Shown here: positions 3,294 through 63,713 of the stretch, in pieces | How the letters are laid out: the number at the start of each line of letters is the position of its first letter | Position numbering within the stretch: position 1 is the first letter of the stretch | Source: Methanocorpusculum parvum | GTDB taxonomy: Archaea; Halobacteriota; Methanomicrobia; Methanomicrobiales; Methanocorpusculaceae | NCBI GenBank assembly: GCA_015063085.1 | Contig: SUTD01000002.1 | Location: 62,001 to 126,000, forward strand | DNA length: 64,000 nt | Direction: 5' to 3' | Program-made: the position numbers and the translations under genes | Notes under the pieces: model-generated | Seen by the model: only the letters and a program-made list of their open reading frames with translations | Database searches by the model: none | What the model was told of the DNA's origin: nothing

Positions 3294-3800
3294 TCAGAAT
3301 CCTGCTTCCTGTACCCGTTCCAGATAGGAACTGCATTCCTGAATCTGGCGGATGATTTCATCCTGCATGGTATCATCATCCGGCATGTTGAGTGTCAGAA
3401 CCGCGGAAGCAACCGCTGACTCACTCACATCTGATAAATCACAGCCCCCGCACGTCCTGCGGCCGTGCTCAACGGCATGAGTCCCTGCGGGCCACACGCC
3501 CATATCTACCGCGGCAGAGAGTGATTCCGAAAATCCGTAATCCGTGATTATCTCCATGCAGTCAGCCGTGTATATCGTTTCGTTGTCTATCTGTTCATAG
3601 ATGTACTCGCGAACCTCATCAGAAATGGAAATCCGGGAAATCCAGTCAGATACCACATCCTCAACCACATCCGCCGGATCATCTCCGTCTTCATCCACCC
3701 GCTCGAATACCTCATCCAGAATCTCATCAAGATTGTTGGAGAGGAAAGCATCCGCTGCTCCCCATACCACATTTTCCCGTGCGTCATCATAGCCTGTCAT
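3294..3800 (-). CDS. acidic hypothetical protein carrying an in-frame palindromic insert
   Basis: This 168-residue, strongly acidic protein begins MTGYDDARENVVWGAADAFL and continues with helical repeats rich in Asp and Glu (LDEILDEVFERVDEDGDDP). It has no signal peptide. Around residues 113-130 it contains GVWPAGTHAVEHGRRTCG, encoded by a 55-bp palindromic element at 3449-3503. Without those 18 residues the flanks join smoothly as AVDM/GCDLSDVSESAV. The adjacent upstream gene carries the same element in the same frame. Its ATG overlaps the stop of that gene by one base (TGATG), so the two are co-translated. Family not recognised. Confidence 0.65.
   Translation of the reverse strand: MTGYDDARENVVWGAADAFLSNNLDEILDEVFERVDEDGDDPADVVEDVVSDWISRISISDEVREYIYEQIDNETIYTADCMEIITDYGFSESLSAAVDMGVWPAGTHAVEHGRRTCGGCDLSDVSESAVASAVLTLNMPDDDTMQDEIIRQIQECSSYLERVQEAGF
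3449..3503. repeat. in-frame palindromic element, copy 1
   Basis: A 55-bp segment beginning cgcacgtcctgcggccgtgc aligns over its whole length, with one small compensating indel pair, to 4255-4309, and less closely to intergenic 60276-60335. It is read in the minus strand within the 168-residue gene and encodes a peptide matching G--------(H)EH-RR-C, the same frame as copy 2. Confidence 0.8.
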
Positions 3801-4366
3801 CAGGCATCGCCTCCGAGTACCTGATTCACCCGTTCTGCGAGAGAAGGGACAGCCGGATTGTAAACGAGTGGTTTCTCTGAATGTGCATTATGGATATGCG
3901 GTCGTTCAGATACCTGATATCCGCTGTCTATCCATTCGTAGCGTTCACACTCAATCGTTTTGGCATTTCCAAAGTTTATCAGCAGTCCGCTTTGGATTCC
4001 GCTTGCACATAAGTAGAACTGAATCTGTCTTCTGTGCATTGCGTAGAGTCTGGATGCAGCTTTGAGTTCCAGGAGAATCCGGTTATCCACGATGATATCC
4101 GCAGCGTATCCATGATTCAGGGTTTCCCCACTATAGAAGACAGGGATGCTGACCTGCCGTTCAGCAGGAAAACCTGCATTCTTCAGCTCAATCATCAAGG
4201 CTCTTTCATAAGTCGATTCAAGCATAGAGAAGCCAAGCTCACTTCTCACCTCATCGCACGCCCTTCGGTCGTGCTCATGGCTTGAGTCACTAACGTGCCT
4301 CTCGCCCATGGCGAGTCCTGCGATGCAGTACTCGTCTGTTCCTTCAATCAGGTTTAACCGTGTCAT
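3800..4366 (-). CDS. GxxExxY family (PD-(D/E)XK-like) protein, interrupted by an 18-codon element
   Basis: The ATG at 4366 (MTRLNLIEGTDEYCIAG) is chosen because the family alignment starts there; 188 residues. The conserved core is evident: LGFSMLESTYERALMIELKN (the GxxExxY region), then PVFYSGE, YAADIIVDNRILLELKA (nuclease-like D and E-x-K) and QIQFYLCASGIQSGLLINFG. These proteins resemble PD-(D/E)XK nucleases; their physiological role is not settled. Family members read IIGAAIEVH-ELG; here IAGLAM and EVRSELG are split by GERHVSDSSHEHDRRACD, exactly 18 codons from a palindromic element. Fold and activity may survive because the insert lies in the N-terminal helix region. A one-base overlap couples it to the downstream 168-residue gene. 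Confidence 0.8.
   Translation of the reverse strand: MTRLNLIEGTDEYCIAGLAMGERHVSDSSHEHDRRACDEVRSELGFSMLESTYERALMIELKNAGFPAERQVSIPVFYSGETLNHGYAADIIVDNRILLELKAASRLYAMHRRQIQFYLCASGIQSGLLINFGNAKTIECERYEWIDSGYQVSERPHIHNAHSEKPLVYNPAVPSLAERVNQVLGGDA
4255..4309. repeat. in-frame palindromic element, copy 2
   Basis: A 55-bp segment beginning cgcacgcccttcggtcgtgc lies inside the GxxExxY gene and is read on the minus strand to give an 18-residue insert with the EH-RR-C signature. Its own inverted repeat is gcacg/cgtgc around ccttcggt. Compare 3449-3503 and 60276-60335. Confidence 0.85.
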
Positions 4367-4381
4367 GATAAACACGATGCG

Positions 4382-4490
4382 AAACGGAACGGCACAAAGA
4401 TGATATTGCTGACGAGGATGGAATGGGTGAGGGAGAGAGAGCGACCGAATCCCTGACAGAATCGGCGGCATTATCTTCTTTGGGCTGAAT
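4382..4490. repeat. long imperfect direct repeat, left copy
   Basis: This segment, just upstream of the GxxExxY start, shares gcacaaagatgatattg at its left and ttatcttctttgggctgaat at its right with 7723-7827, at nearly equal spacing and with a more diverged middle. The two copies bound the 3.3-kb AT-rich block containing the GNAT and pentapeptide genes, so they may be footprints of its insertion or of a duplicated promoter region. Confidence 0.65.
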
Positions 4491-5082
4491 GAATCATGAA
4501 GGATGAGAGATTCTCCGGGATGAAAAAAGACTCGTCGCTGACGCACACTATCGCCAGTCTTTCAGACTGGCTCAAGCCTTGAGGTTTACGCCTCGCGCCA
4601 AACGCTCCGTCCGGGACGCGACGGGAAACCATGGTTAAAATCGAGGAGGTAAAACAATACAACCATAGTTTCCCGCCGCGAAAAAGACGCCGCGTTTAGC
4701 GAGCGTCAGCGGCGGGTTGTTATCATCATAGTAACATAAAAGTAAGACTGCAAGCTGACTACAGGTTATTTTTATTGAAGTTAAAAACTGGAAAAATGTA
4801 TCAGATAGAAGTAGTATGTATATCAATCAATAGCTATAGTTACAAATAGAGGATAGGAAAAATAAAGGATATTAGATAATTAAATAAAATAATATTAGAA
4901 TTTGATATATGAAAATTCAAATATTGTAAGTAAGGTATAAACTAATTCTTCATTTAACGAATGAGGGAACAAGACATGAAATATTAATACCATTACATAC
5001 ATATAATTATTATTATATACCATAATTTATGTCTATCACATATTGCCACCAATAATTATTTAAGAAGGAGAATTCATTAATC
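4491..5082. other. gene-free junction between GC-rich repeats and the AT-rich island
   Basis: No gene is supported. At 4553-4680 there are several inverted repeats: gccagtc/gactggc near 4554, gggaaaccatgg (4622) opposite ccatagtttccc (4660), and the 15-mer ccgtccgggacgcga (4607-4621), which recurs inverted at 7896-7910. From about 4690 the sequence becomes strongly AT-rich, marking the start of the defence island. Confidence 0.5.
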
Positions 5083-7624: not shown

Positions 7625-7722
7625 CTTCACTACATTATCTATTTTGTAATATTAATAAACTGTCTGCAATCTGGGTTATTTCTTGTACCAGAGCTATATA
7701 TTTCAGGTTAAAAACACCAAGT

Positions 7723-7827
7723 AAAACCGGACGGTACAAAGATGATATTGTCAACATGATTGGAAGCGAGGAGGCGGAAGCTTACGAGCGAGAAGACCCG
7801 GGGACATTATCTTCTTTGGGCTGAATT
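7723..7827. repeat. long imperfect direct repeat, right copy
   Basis: This is the partner of 4382-4490, sharing acaaagatgatattg and cattatcttctttgggctga. Left of it (7690-7722) lies a short stretch resembling the start of the GxxExxY gene (ttcaggttaaa against atcaggtttaa), which suggests a remnant of a second 5' region. Confidence 0.6.
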
Positions 7828-27808: not shown

Positions 27809-28103
27809 TCTCTCCCCCTAAGAACCGGAGTGCTGCAAACACTCCTTCCAGGAACCAGCGGTCCGCATTCGGCGTCGGCGACGAATTGTCACTTGCGATA
27901 ATCACCGCACACTTCAGCTCCTCCACATCTGCAGGAGAATGGAAATATGACGTCACAATAAAGTCCAGCATCTGCTTCTGCTTCTCCGGACTCTGTACCA
28001 GACTATGGTCTTTTTCCAACCGCCCGGATGCCCGCGACGCCTGAGGAGCATGCGCCTCCGGCTTAGCTCCTGTATCCCTGTTATGGTCTTTTTCCGACCG
28101 CAT
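27792..28103 (-). CDS. hypothetical protein with N-terminus extended by an R1 repeat
   Basis: Starting at ATG 28103 this frame gives 103 residues, of which residues about 8-33 (RDTGAKPEAHAPQASRASGR region) are encoded by an R1 repeat inserted in frame. The duplicated flank EKDHN/EKDHS shows the original start was MRSEKDHSLVQSPEKQK, giving about 77 residues. The rest (MLDFIVTSYFHSPADVEELK, WFLEGVFAALRFLG) is similar in pattern to the gene just upstream (FIEGVMSGLNARRV against FLEGVFAALRFLG), so the two may be distant paralogues. Function unknown. It overlaps the HNH gene by 17 bases. Confidence 0.6.
   Translation of the reverse strand: MRSEKDHNRDTGAKPEAHAPQASRASGRLEKDHSLVQSPEKQKQMLDFIVTSYFHSPADVEELKCAVIIASDNSSPTPNADRWFLEGVFAALRFLGGENGNSL
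28004..28101. repeat. R1 repeat copy between duplicated gene ends
   Basis: tatggtctttttcc occurs at 28004 and again 78 bases later at 28082, with ccgc/ccgc following (one mismatch between). The enclosed R1 core (28025-28080: gatgcccgcgacgcctgagg ... ggcttagctcc) thus sits between two copies of sequence that is both the 3' end of the upstream gene and the 5' end of the downstream one. The 78-bp step is 26 codons, so both reading frames are kept. Confidence 0.8.
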
Positions 28104-30367: not shown

Positions 30368-30425
30368 ATCGTAGGGCTAAGGCTCGAAGAGCCGCACGCC
30401 CTAAAGGCGTCGCGGGGATATGGGC
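30368..30425. repeat. R1 repeat copy at the 3' end of ftr
   Basis: ccctacatcgtaggg hairpin followed by ctaaggctcgaagagccgcac and gcgtcgcggggatatgggcg: the reverse complement of the R1 orientation seen at 1344-1405. It abuts the ftr stop codon (30428) directly. No duplication of the ftr end is visible on its left. Confidence 0.75.
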
Positions 30426-30427
30426 GT

Positions 30428-31324
30428 TCAGATGCAGTCCTTTAAGTTGAACTTGAACGGACCGAGGTTTCCGCCGTAGTTTCCTGCGGTGATCTTAACG
30501 ACACCCGGAACTCTGCATGCTGCCTGGACACCGGCCTTCATTGCTGCCTTGACTGCCTCTTCGGAGACACCGTCAATGACAATCTCGTAAACTGCCTTGA
30601 CGCCTTCCGGAATCTCAGTCTCGAGACCCTTCTCAATGACTGCTTCACGGATGGATGGGCAGAACTTTTCGTTGGTGGAAGCTCCCATGAACTTGTAGTT
30701 TAAGGAACCAACCTTGGAACCAGAGGAGACAACTCCTCCCGGGAACGGAGTGATGACACCGTCAACTTCTGCAATTGCATCGACTGCTGCTTCTGCAGCG
30801 ATTAATGCGGACATCTGGGAGTCACCGAGGATTAAGAAGTTACCGCCCGCAACACCCTTGATTGCGCCGATTTCTTCCTCAACAATGAAGTCGCCGCCCA
30901 TGATTGGGATGGACCAGCACTGGATTCCGCCAACCTCGACCTTCTTCTCGAACTTGTCTCCGAAGAAGTGGAGCTTGATTGGGATGATTTCCTCTTCGCC
31001 TGCGTGTCCGTTGAAGACAGCGGTGGTTGGTGCGGTTAAGACACACTCAGAGACGCGCTCTAAGACCTGCTCTTTGAGTGCCTTCTTTCCGCAGCAGATA
31101 AGAATGGAGTAACCCGGGCGGTTGTCCGGAGTCTCGGATGCCGGGATGAACTTCTCAATACCTGCTTCACACGGGCATCCGATGGTGGAGGTTGCAAATC
31201 CGGTTGCTTCGGTTGCTGCCTTGTATGCCCATTCCTTCGTTACTGCAGTGATAATTACACGGGCTGCCCAGACAGGGAAACCTTCTGCGTAAGTATCCTC
31301 GATAATTACACCGTTAAATTCCAT
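30428..31324 (-). CDS. ftr: formylmethanofuran:tetrahydromethanopterin formyltransferase
   Basis: The start at 31324 (MEFNGVIIEDTYAEGFPVWA) has GGTGAACTT upstream and gives 298 residues, the usual length. It is recognised along its whole length: ARVIITAVTKEWAYKAATEA, TGFATSTIGCPCEAGIEKFI, SGSKVGSLNYKFMGASTNEKF and the ending GPFKFNLKDCI. The enzyme moves the formyl group from formylmethanofuran to tetrahydromethanopterin, the second step of CO2 reduction to methane, in the cytoplasm as a tetramer. It stands alone here, not with fmd/fwd genes, and is bracketed by R1 repeats on both sides. Some Ftr homologues act in methylotrophs, but the setting is clearly methanogenic. Confidence 0.97.
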   Translation of the reverse strand: MEFNGVIIEDTYAEGFPVWAARVIITAVTKEWAYKAATEATGFATSTIGCPCEAGIEKFIPASETPDNRPGYSILICCGKKALKEQVLERVSECVLTAPTTAVFNGHAGEEEIIPIKLHFFGDKFEKKVEVGGIQCWSIPIMGGDFIVEEEIGAIKGVAGGNFLILGDSQMSALIAAEAAVDAIAEVDGVITPFPGGVVSSGSKVGSLNYKFMGASTNEKFCPSIREAVIEKGLETEIPEGVKAVYEIVIDGVSEEAVKAAMKAGVQAACRVPGVVKITAGNYGGNLGPFKFNLKDCI

Positions 31325-31385
31325 AAGTTCACCTATGTAGTGATACCATATGTTTGTAGCGAGAACTAAATAGTACTTTCCTTTC

Positions 31386-31495
31386 GCCGTATGCCCGTGA
31401 CGGGCGCGAGCCGAAGGCTCAAGCCGGGAGCAAGTCAGCATGACTTGCGAGCCTGAGGGGCATACGGCTCTTCGAGCCGTAGCCCTAAAGGGTTG
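31386..31495. repeat. long R1 repeat copy upstream of ftr
   Basis: This copy has the same ends as the others (cgccgtatgcccgtgacg; cctgaggggcatacggctct with tcgagccgtagccct) but an additional internal segment of about 50 bp with its own hairpins (gcgagccgaaggctc; caagtcagcatgacttg). It fills most of the 288-bp gap between ftr and the next gene. No duplicated flank is seen. Confidence 0.65.
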
Positions 31496-37661: not shown

Positions 37662-37715
37662 GGGGTTAAGGCTCGCAGAGCCGCATGCCCCTTAGGCGTC
37701 GCGGGCATACGGGCG
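37662..37715. repeat. R1 repeat copy beside tRNA-Leu
   Basis: ggttaaggctcgcagagccg and ccttaggcgtcgcgggcata with terminal cgggcg: the same orientation as the copy at 30368. It ends 9 bases from the 3' end of tRNA-Leu. No duplication of the tRNA end is visible. Confidence 0.75.
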
Positions 37716-37724
37716 TGTGAAAAG

Positions 37725-59595: not shown

Positions 59596-59669
59596 GAAAA
59601 AAGCCTTCGTAAAATTTGGGTGATTTGTATCTCCAAAGGAGATGCAAATCTTTGTCTTCCGATTAGCTT
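59596..59669. repeat. R3 repeat copy 1
   Basis: A 74-bp segment matching 60383-60456 at 70 of 74 positions. It contains a hairpin of tgtatctcc/ggagatgca around aaa and begins with gaaaaaagcc. Read on the minus strand it ends in a T-run, like a terminator. The 355 bases between the integrase and the small ORF at 59829 otherwise hold only AT-rich sequence. Confidence 0.8.
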
Positions 59670-59828
59670 TACGTGAATTCTTTCAGTGAAGAGGTTATTT
59701 AGAACTACAAAAAATGTATCAAAAATCTCTGTTGTATCGGGGAGGTTATTTGTATTGAAAGAGCACTGATATATGCTGACTTTTGTCGGCTCCGGACTTT
59801 ACCGGATTATCAAAAGGAGACACTCATC

Positions 59829-59950: not shown

Positions 59951-59963
59951 CTCGAAGCAAGAC

Positions 59964-60115
59964 TATTTATTCTTTTGAGTACTATTATTTTACGTCAACG
60001 AATCATCGATTCGTTTGTACTATCTGAATGAATTCAGATTGATTGTTATATAGTCTAGGCGCGGATGTTTTCCGGAGTGATGACCGGAAATCAACACATT
60101 CGCGTTTGTAGATGA
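59964..60115. repeat. R4 repeat copy 1
   Basis: About 150 bp shared with 63564-63713: ttattcttttgagtactat, an aacgaatc/gattcgtt hairpin, an atgaattcagat hairpin in this copy, and gcggatgttttccgg with ggtga-accggaaa, ending with a gcggatg/cattcgc stem. Both copies lie in gene-free DNA; conserved hairpins suggest a structured RNA or mobile repeat. Confidence 0.7.
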
Positions 60116-60275
60116 ATCTATTTTACTGTGTTCTTATTTTGTTGAAATGTTTTCTCTTATCTCAACTACATTTAGGATATTCCACCGTGCACTGTTCCAG
60201 ATTCTATTTCAAAATAAAAATCATCCTGCGCTGAGATTTAGAAACACGTGAATCGCCAGCTGCTGATGCATCTTT

Positions 60276-60335
60276 CGCACGTCCTTCAGTCGTGCTTATG
60301 GCTTAGTCCAGTAGTTCGCTAACCTCCCTCGCCAA
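60276..60335. repeat. intergenic copy of the in-frame palindromic element
   Basis: cgcacgtccttcagtcgtgc followed by ttatggcttagtcc aligns with 3449-3503 and 4255-4309 but has no coding context. If read in the same minus-strand frame it would contain a stop. It may be a source or a decayed copy of the element. The rest of 59934-60484 holds only repeats, and I see no gene. Confidence 0.65.
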
Positions 60336-60382: not shown

Positions 60383-60456
60383 GAAAAAAGCCTTCGTAAA
60401 ATTTGGGTGATTTGCACCTCCAAAGGAGATGCAAATCTTTGTCTTCCAATCAGCTT
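60383..60456. repeat. R3 repeat copy 2, at the 3' end of the S-layer gene
   Basis: Partner of 59596-59669. On the minus strand it follows the S-layer stop (60485) by about 30 bases, forms ttgcatctcctttggaggtg hairpin and ends in a T-rich tail (cttttttcttattttc), so it probably terminates S-layer transcription. The second copy suggests the terminator has been duplicated or is mobile. Confidence 0.75.
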
Positions 60457-60484
60457 AGAGCCGATTCTTCTGTTTCAGAAGAAT

Positions 60485-63420: not shown

Positions 63421-63473
63421 CTGCTAAGGCTCGGAGAGCCGCATGCAGGTAAGGCGTCGCGGGGATATGGGCG
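63421..63473. repeat. R1 repeat copy near the window end
   Basis: gctaaggctcggagagccgc and gtaaggcgtcgcggggatat followed by gggcg, the same orientation as the copies at 30368 and 37662. No gene end or duplicated flank is visible next to it. Between 63474 and 63871 I see only repeat R4 and AT-rich sequence. Confidence 0.7.
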
Positions 63474-63563
63474 ACTTGCATCTGCGGAGTTGTGACCGCT
63501 AAAAAAAGGATGCATGTCTAAATTAGTTAAACTGTTTTGTCAATTCTGAAAGACGGACAGAGT

Positions 63564-63713
63564 TTTTATTCTTTTGAGTACTATATAATCATGTCAACGA
63601 ATCTCCGATTCGTTAGAACGAACCGGAGAAAATCCAGATTCCTAATATGAGTTCTATGTGCGGATGTTTTCCGGGGTGGTATCCGGAAAATCCAAGCATC
63701 CGTGCTTTTGATG
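63564..63713. repeat. R4 repeat copy 2
   Basis: Partner of 59964-60115: ttattcttttgagtactat, then caacgaatc-tccgattcgtt, and gcggatgttttccggggtgg/atccggaaaa with gcatccgtgc at the end. The hairpins are kept by compensating changes at several positions (for example the loop of the aacgaatc stem), while loop sequences differ. Confidence 0.7.

Follow-up and report, generated by a model that had tools for sequence, protein, structure and literature searches.

Genes and repeat copies at the locus

The window (the whole 64,000-nucleotide stretch that was analyzed) belongs to a 1.40-Mb draft genome that is 80% complete (G000). Near its start are adjacent genes for a GxxExxY protein and a partner protein, each carrying a short repeat in frame (Table 1). 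The GxxExxY protein exceeds the curated cut-offs for PDDEXK_3 and TIGR04256 (111 bits versus 22 and 107.5 versus 35, respectively) and retains the family-invariant residues E50, Y53, D90, E100, K102 and Q114 (alignment A8). In its AlphaFold2 model (pLDDT 77), the insert lies in a loop that separates helix one from helix two, and the nearest solved folds are those of lambda-type exonucleases and of SSO0001, a Cas4-family nuclease. Relatives of the partner fold were not found in the PDB, and the insert is the sole segment of the partner model with pLDDT below 50. The insert residues are modeled as a low-confidence loop in both proteins, and the low values may reflect shallow alignments.

Table 1. 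Genes, element copies and leader hairpins in the window, with scores under the element covariance model (R1) where available.
Feature	Position	Strand	Details
Partner gene	3294..3800	-	168 aa; all-helical model; no Pfam/NCBIfam match over cut-off
Element in frame in partner gene	3447..3500	+	18 codons added, VWPAGTHAVEHGRRTCGG; R1 45.8 bits; present in G019/G020, absent from G021 orthologue
GxxExxY gene	3800..4366	-	188 aa; PD-(D/E)XK nuclease family; PF13366 5.5e-32, TIGR04256 5.1e-31
Element in frame in GxxExxY gene	4253..4306	+	18 codons added, GERHVSDSSHEHDRRACD; R1 65.8 bits; exact 54-bp insertion, absent from G019, G020 and G021
Leader hairpin (R2 family)	4374..4489	-	upstream of GxxExxY gene; alignment A6, model R2
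Intergenic element copy	4550..4599	+	upstream of GxxExxY leader; R1 62.2 bits
Second leader-hairpin copy	7715..7825	-	upstream of pentapeptide-repeat gene; R2 family
Element copy just upstream of FTR gene	31403..31451	-	overlaps start of longest ORF (30428-31441); R1 54.7 bits
Intergenic element copy of the initial annotation	60274..60333	+	R1 48.9 bits

The initial annotation had described two related palindromic segments in these genes and a third copy between genes. All three are real. The R1 model, trained on 19 copies, gives the boundaries listed in Table 1; the two in-gene copies are 54 bp each, are 76% identical and encode the translations originally given. A search with the pattern GCACGYCCTBCRGYCGTGCT, allowing up to 3 mismatches, identified exactly three sites in the window (0.01 expected), namely the two in-gene copies and the copy near 60276. 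The model also identified two window copies that had been missed, those starting at 4550 and 31403. The latter is nested at the center of another palindromic repeat (flank palindrome score 14.5). An ORF-based look made it a candidate coding copy, which was rejected; the copy is counted as non-coding because the FTR domain begins downstream of it. Also present towards the end of the window are two pairs of direct repeats, one of 87 nt with 89% identity (59596-59682 and 60383-60469) and one of 76 nt with 75% identity (59960-60035 and 63559-63634).

Structure and distribution of the element

The element is approximately 45-57 bp long, with the layout TCGC, hairpin A, linker TCATGGCTTGAG, hairpin B and CTCGCC. 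The "palindromic" segment is therefore best read as two separate hairpins joined by a linker. In counts of covariation, 29 and 129 cells are changed on both sides, compared with 9.6 and 37.2 in shuffles (0/500). Since compensatory changes in both stems far exceed those of shuffled and slid controls, the conserved feature is the paired structure. The copy in the partner gene is not more stably folded than shuffled DNA (z -0.38).

Further genomic copies, the search for which had been proposed, are abundant. Among the best 150 candidates in each genome, at least 47 are element copies in G000 and at least 45 in G021. An exact 23-base search of the genome collection matched only Methanocorpusculum metagenome-assembled genomes (MAGs), from the guts of goat, cattle, water deer and water buffalo. 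When 150 genomes of the order were scanned, matches were identified in 20 of the 25 Methanocorpusculum genomes, and outside this genus in six genomes only, each with a single weak match. Strong copies occur in seven species. The host genomes are MAGs from ruminant guts, and several are incomplete. Weak R1 matches in three genomes (G013, G014 and G018; at most 39 bits) may represent other hairpin families and were left out of the coding census. In one of these the weak matches form a tandem array with a 52-bp period (G014:C3:59831-60185).

Credible genes contain only 5 of the 196 copies inspected; these 5 belong to one operon type (GxxExxY plus partner), and the rest are intergenic. A match of 18 bits inside an amidohydrolase-like gene (L196) was discarded as a chance match.

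Filled and empty insertion sites

Alignment of orthologues shows exact 18-codon insertions in both the GxxExxY and the partner genes. The GxxExxY protein of the window reads IAGLAM-GERHVSDSSHEHDRRACD-EVRSELG, whereas the element-free orthologues read IAGLAM-KVRSELG (G019 and G020) and IVGLAM-KVRNQLG (G021), which bears out the original suggestion that removal of 18 residues restores the family pattern. G000, G019 and G020 all carry the partner insert, and the site is empty in G021 (AAVDMG-CDLSD). A GxxExxY paralogue of G020 (L130) carries a different element copy near its start, which also adds 18 residues. Thus there are three independent coding events (GxxExxY of G000, the partner gene and L130), all 54 bp long and stop-free, and the three encoded peptides differ from one another. 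Exact filled and empty orthologous pairs were identified at intergenic sites as well. The existence of empty orthologous sites and of additional genomic copies supports the initial reading of an inserted repeat rather than a normal part of the fold.

No target site duplication was seen at the GxxExxY site, the partner site or several intergenic filled/empty pairs; one leader site (L137) is readable as a 3-bp duplication. Flanking palindromes are enriched at the insertion point (P 2e-4), and five copies are nested at one shared position in the center of another family of palindromes. In the window, a second palindromic family (D1/D3) is represented at 520-565, 1344-1389, 28021-28066, 30374-30427, 37663-37716 and 63421-63474, and short elements are nested in the center of palindromes of this family in several genomes.

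Among 147 distinct intergenic copies, 31 (21%) have a length divisible by 3, and one of these is 54 bp. The three coding events are all 54 bp; judged against the intergenic copies, P is 0.009 for their length and 0.0015 if an open frame is also required. The fact that the two window inserts are read in the same frame, emphasized in the initial annotation, says little, given that one or two frames on each strand are open in most copies.

Comparison with known repeats

Rickettsia palindromic elements (RPEs) are the classic case of in-frame palindromic insertion; they are approximately 150 bp long, and nearly half are located in functionally unrelated genes (review, PMC10969869). Like RPEs, the element is multicopy palindromic DNA found in frame in protein genes, where it adds surplus residues that are absent from orthologues. 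Unlike RPEs, it is 45-57 bp long, has an archaeal host, enters one operon type instead of many unrelated genes, and encodes three different peptides instead of a conserved peptide per family. Thus, the proposed archaeal equivalent of RPEs holds as far as an in-frame palindromic repeat in protein genes is concerned, but not as a general habit, given the coding census.

In bacteria, a minority of repetitive extragenic palindromes (REPs) are intragenic, with DNA repair genes hosting many of these copies; nesting in palindromes is also seen for some (PMC3733652). The element resembles GTAG/CGTC REPs in being multicopy and in forming mainly extragenic hairpins, single or clustered, some of them nested in palindromes. 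However, the GTAG end tag occurs in only 1 of 175 copies. CGTC or GACG is found near an end in 45 of the 175, at no fixed position. Unlike these REPs, the element has two hairpins, and a Y1/RAYT transposase was not found in the 25 genomes of the genus. Like miniature inverted-repeat transposable elements (MITEs), it is short, non-coding and multicopy with exact filled and empty sites, but it lacks a clear target duplication and has no known parent transposon. Terminal inverted repeats were not seen in the element alignment. At the in-gene loci the element behaves like an RPE, and overall it is mainly extragenic and REP-like. We would class it with REPs and RPEs, as a new archaeal variant that fails defining features of each family. 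Our literature search found no archaeal in-frame palindromic insertion.

Proposed origin of the in-gene copies

Most probably, the element is a short, non-autonomous mobile DNA of two hairpins, mainly intergenic, that three times entered the GxxExxY/partner operon and was kept there as an in-frame loop. It would spread mainly between genes, inserting precisely and without clear target duplication, often at the center of another palindrome or near GxxExxY genes. Three separate entries into this operon type, each as a 54-bp stop-free insert, would then have been retained, as such an insert adds a flexible loop of 18 residues without a frame shift. Movement would be in trans by an enzyme, possibly via a single-strand or hairpin-loop insertion route, and translation would presumably proceed through the insert. 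If this reading is true, in-frame palindromic insertion extends to an archaeon, and the genus, without a detected Y1 transposase, provides a test case for REP-like spread without RAYTs. With clean filled and empty sites in close relatives, tolerance versus selection of such inserts becomes a question that can be addressed directly.

Selection on the host genes and inserts

The latter question, raised by the initial annotation, is partly answered. Both host genes are under purifying selection (when G000 is compared with G020, dN/dS is 0.14 in GxxExxY and 0.11 in the partner; core dN is 0.03 versus dS 0.67), and synonymous sites in the partner insert show unusual conservation. In the comparison of G000 with G019, this insert has three residue differences and zero synonymous changes, while 69% of flanking synonymous sites, which are nearly saturated between the species, differ. 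Codons for the same residue are identical in 15/15 cases in the insert versus 48/90 in the flanks (P 3e-4), and fourfold sites in 10/10 versus 12/34 (P 5e-4). Gene conversion from the other inspected copies is unlikely to be the source of this identity because none of them is closer than 83% to the partner insert. The pattern, drawn from few sites, points to constraint on the partner insert at the DNA or RNA level.

It is possible, though less likely than not, that the inserts are kept by selection rather than simply tolerated, either for a DNA- or RNA-level role (e.g., an mRNA hairpin or a protein-binding site) or as a useful protein loop. However, the conservation concerns a single short insert, the GxxExxY insert occurs in one genome only, and repeated recent insertion at the same site could conceivably have occurred.

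Mobilization and the GxxExxY genes

Y1 transposases (Y1_Tnp, PF01797) were not found in the 25 Methanocorpusculum genomes, two of which are single-contig; the same model was positive in 5 sister-genus genomes and in 5 of the 14 genomes that served as controls. Elements are concentrated around GxxExxY genes. In G000, 11 of 15 GxxExxY genes have an element no more than 1 kb away (0.8 expected, P 9e-12), as do 5 of 9 in G021 (P 5e-5), and elements in inverted orientation often flank these genes. One GxxExxY gene (L144:2332-3028) sits between two identical copies of a shortened, 36-bp element in inverted orientation, at distances of 94 and 96 bp.

This proximity and orientation, the failure to find a Y1 transposase in the genus, and a fold whose nearest neighbors are a Cas4-like nuclease and exonucleases of the lambda type are consistent with mobilization of the element by the GxxExxY nuclease, the role attributed to RAYT transposases in the case of REPs. 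We consider this unlikely, however. Three genomes (G010, G022 and G027) have 22-34 element matches and no detected GxxExxY gene, albeit at only 69-76% completeness, and the single-contig genome G031 encodes three GxxExxY genes yet has few, weak element matches. Elements and GxxExxY genes may both simply accumulate in defense islands.

In the loci fetched from five species, GxxExxY genes are arranged in convergent pairs with a spacing of 1.3-7.7 kb, and most pairs combine two different subtypes (L112, L113, L114, L116, L131, L133, L134, L136-L140, L142, L143 and L146). Of the cargo genes tested between them, most are for restriction-modification or defense (MmeI-type enzymes, DpnI, C5 (cytosine) methylases, type I HsdM/HsdR, GmrSD and Abi_alpha), and some are surface or regulatory genes. 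Most GxxExxY genes examined are preceded by the leader hairpin, which has 16 pairs with compensatory changes (alignment A5, 25 leaders). An Rfam scan of five sources gave no match except a tRNA, and among 33 Methanocorpusculaceae genomes the R2 model identified the leader only in G000, G019, G020, G021 and G023. Restriction-modification cassettes flanked by GxxExxY genes with a structured leader are apparently an undescribed set. A broader proposal, that the nucleases and leader hairpins form a mobile system that moves these cassettes and spreads the elements, with the in-gene copies as by-products of insertion, seems to us quite improbable.

Integrity and expression of the interrupted genes

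Could the inserts have inactivated the genes, leaving young pseudogenes? In the GxxExxY protein, the insert interrupts the region of the family's first helix, and it is confined to one genome. On the other hand, the reading frames remain open, the catalytic residues have been retained, core dN is low relative to dS as given above, and the partner insert is common to three species in which the gene is still constrained. Inactivation is thus very unlikely, and retention of a mobile element as an in-frame loop remains our preferred explanation.

In certain mitochondrial genes of yeast, skipping of short hairpin inserts, either at the mRNA level or by the ribosome, has been reported. Such skipping of the 54 nt here, to which the presence of short hairpin-forming inserts within conserved coding sequence might point, is scarcely credible, since skipping requires neither a length divisible by 3 nor avoidance of stop codons, and all three coding events have both.
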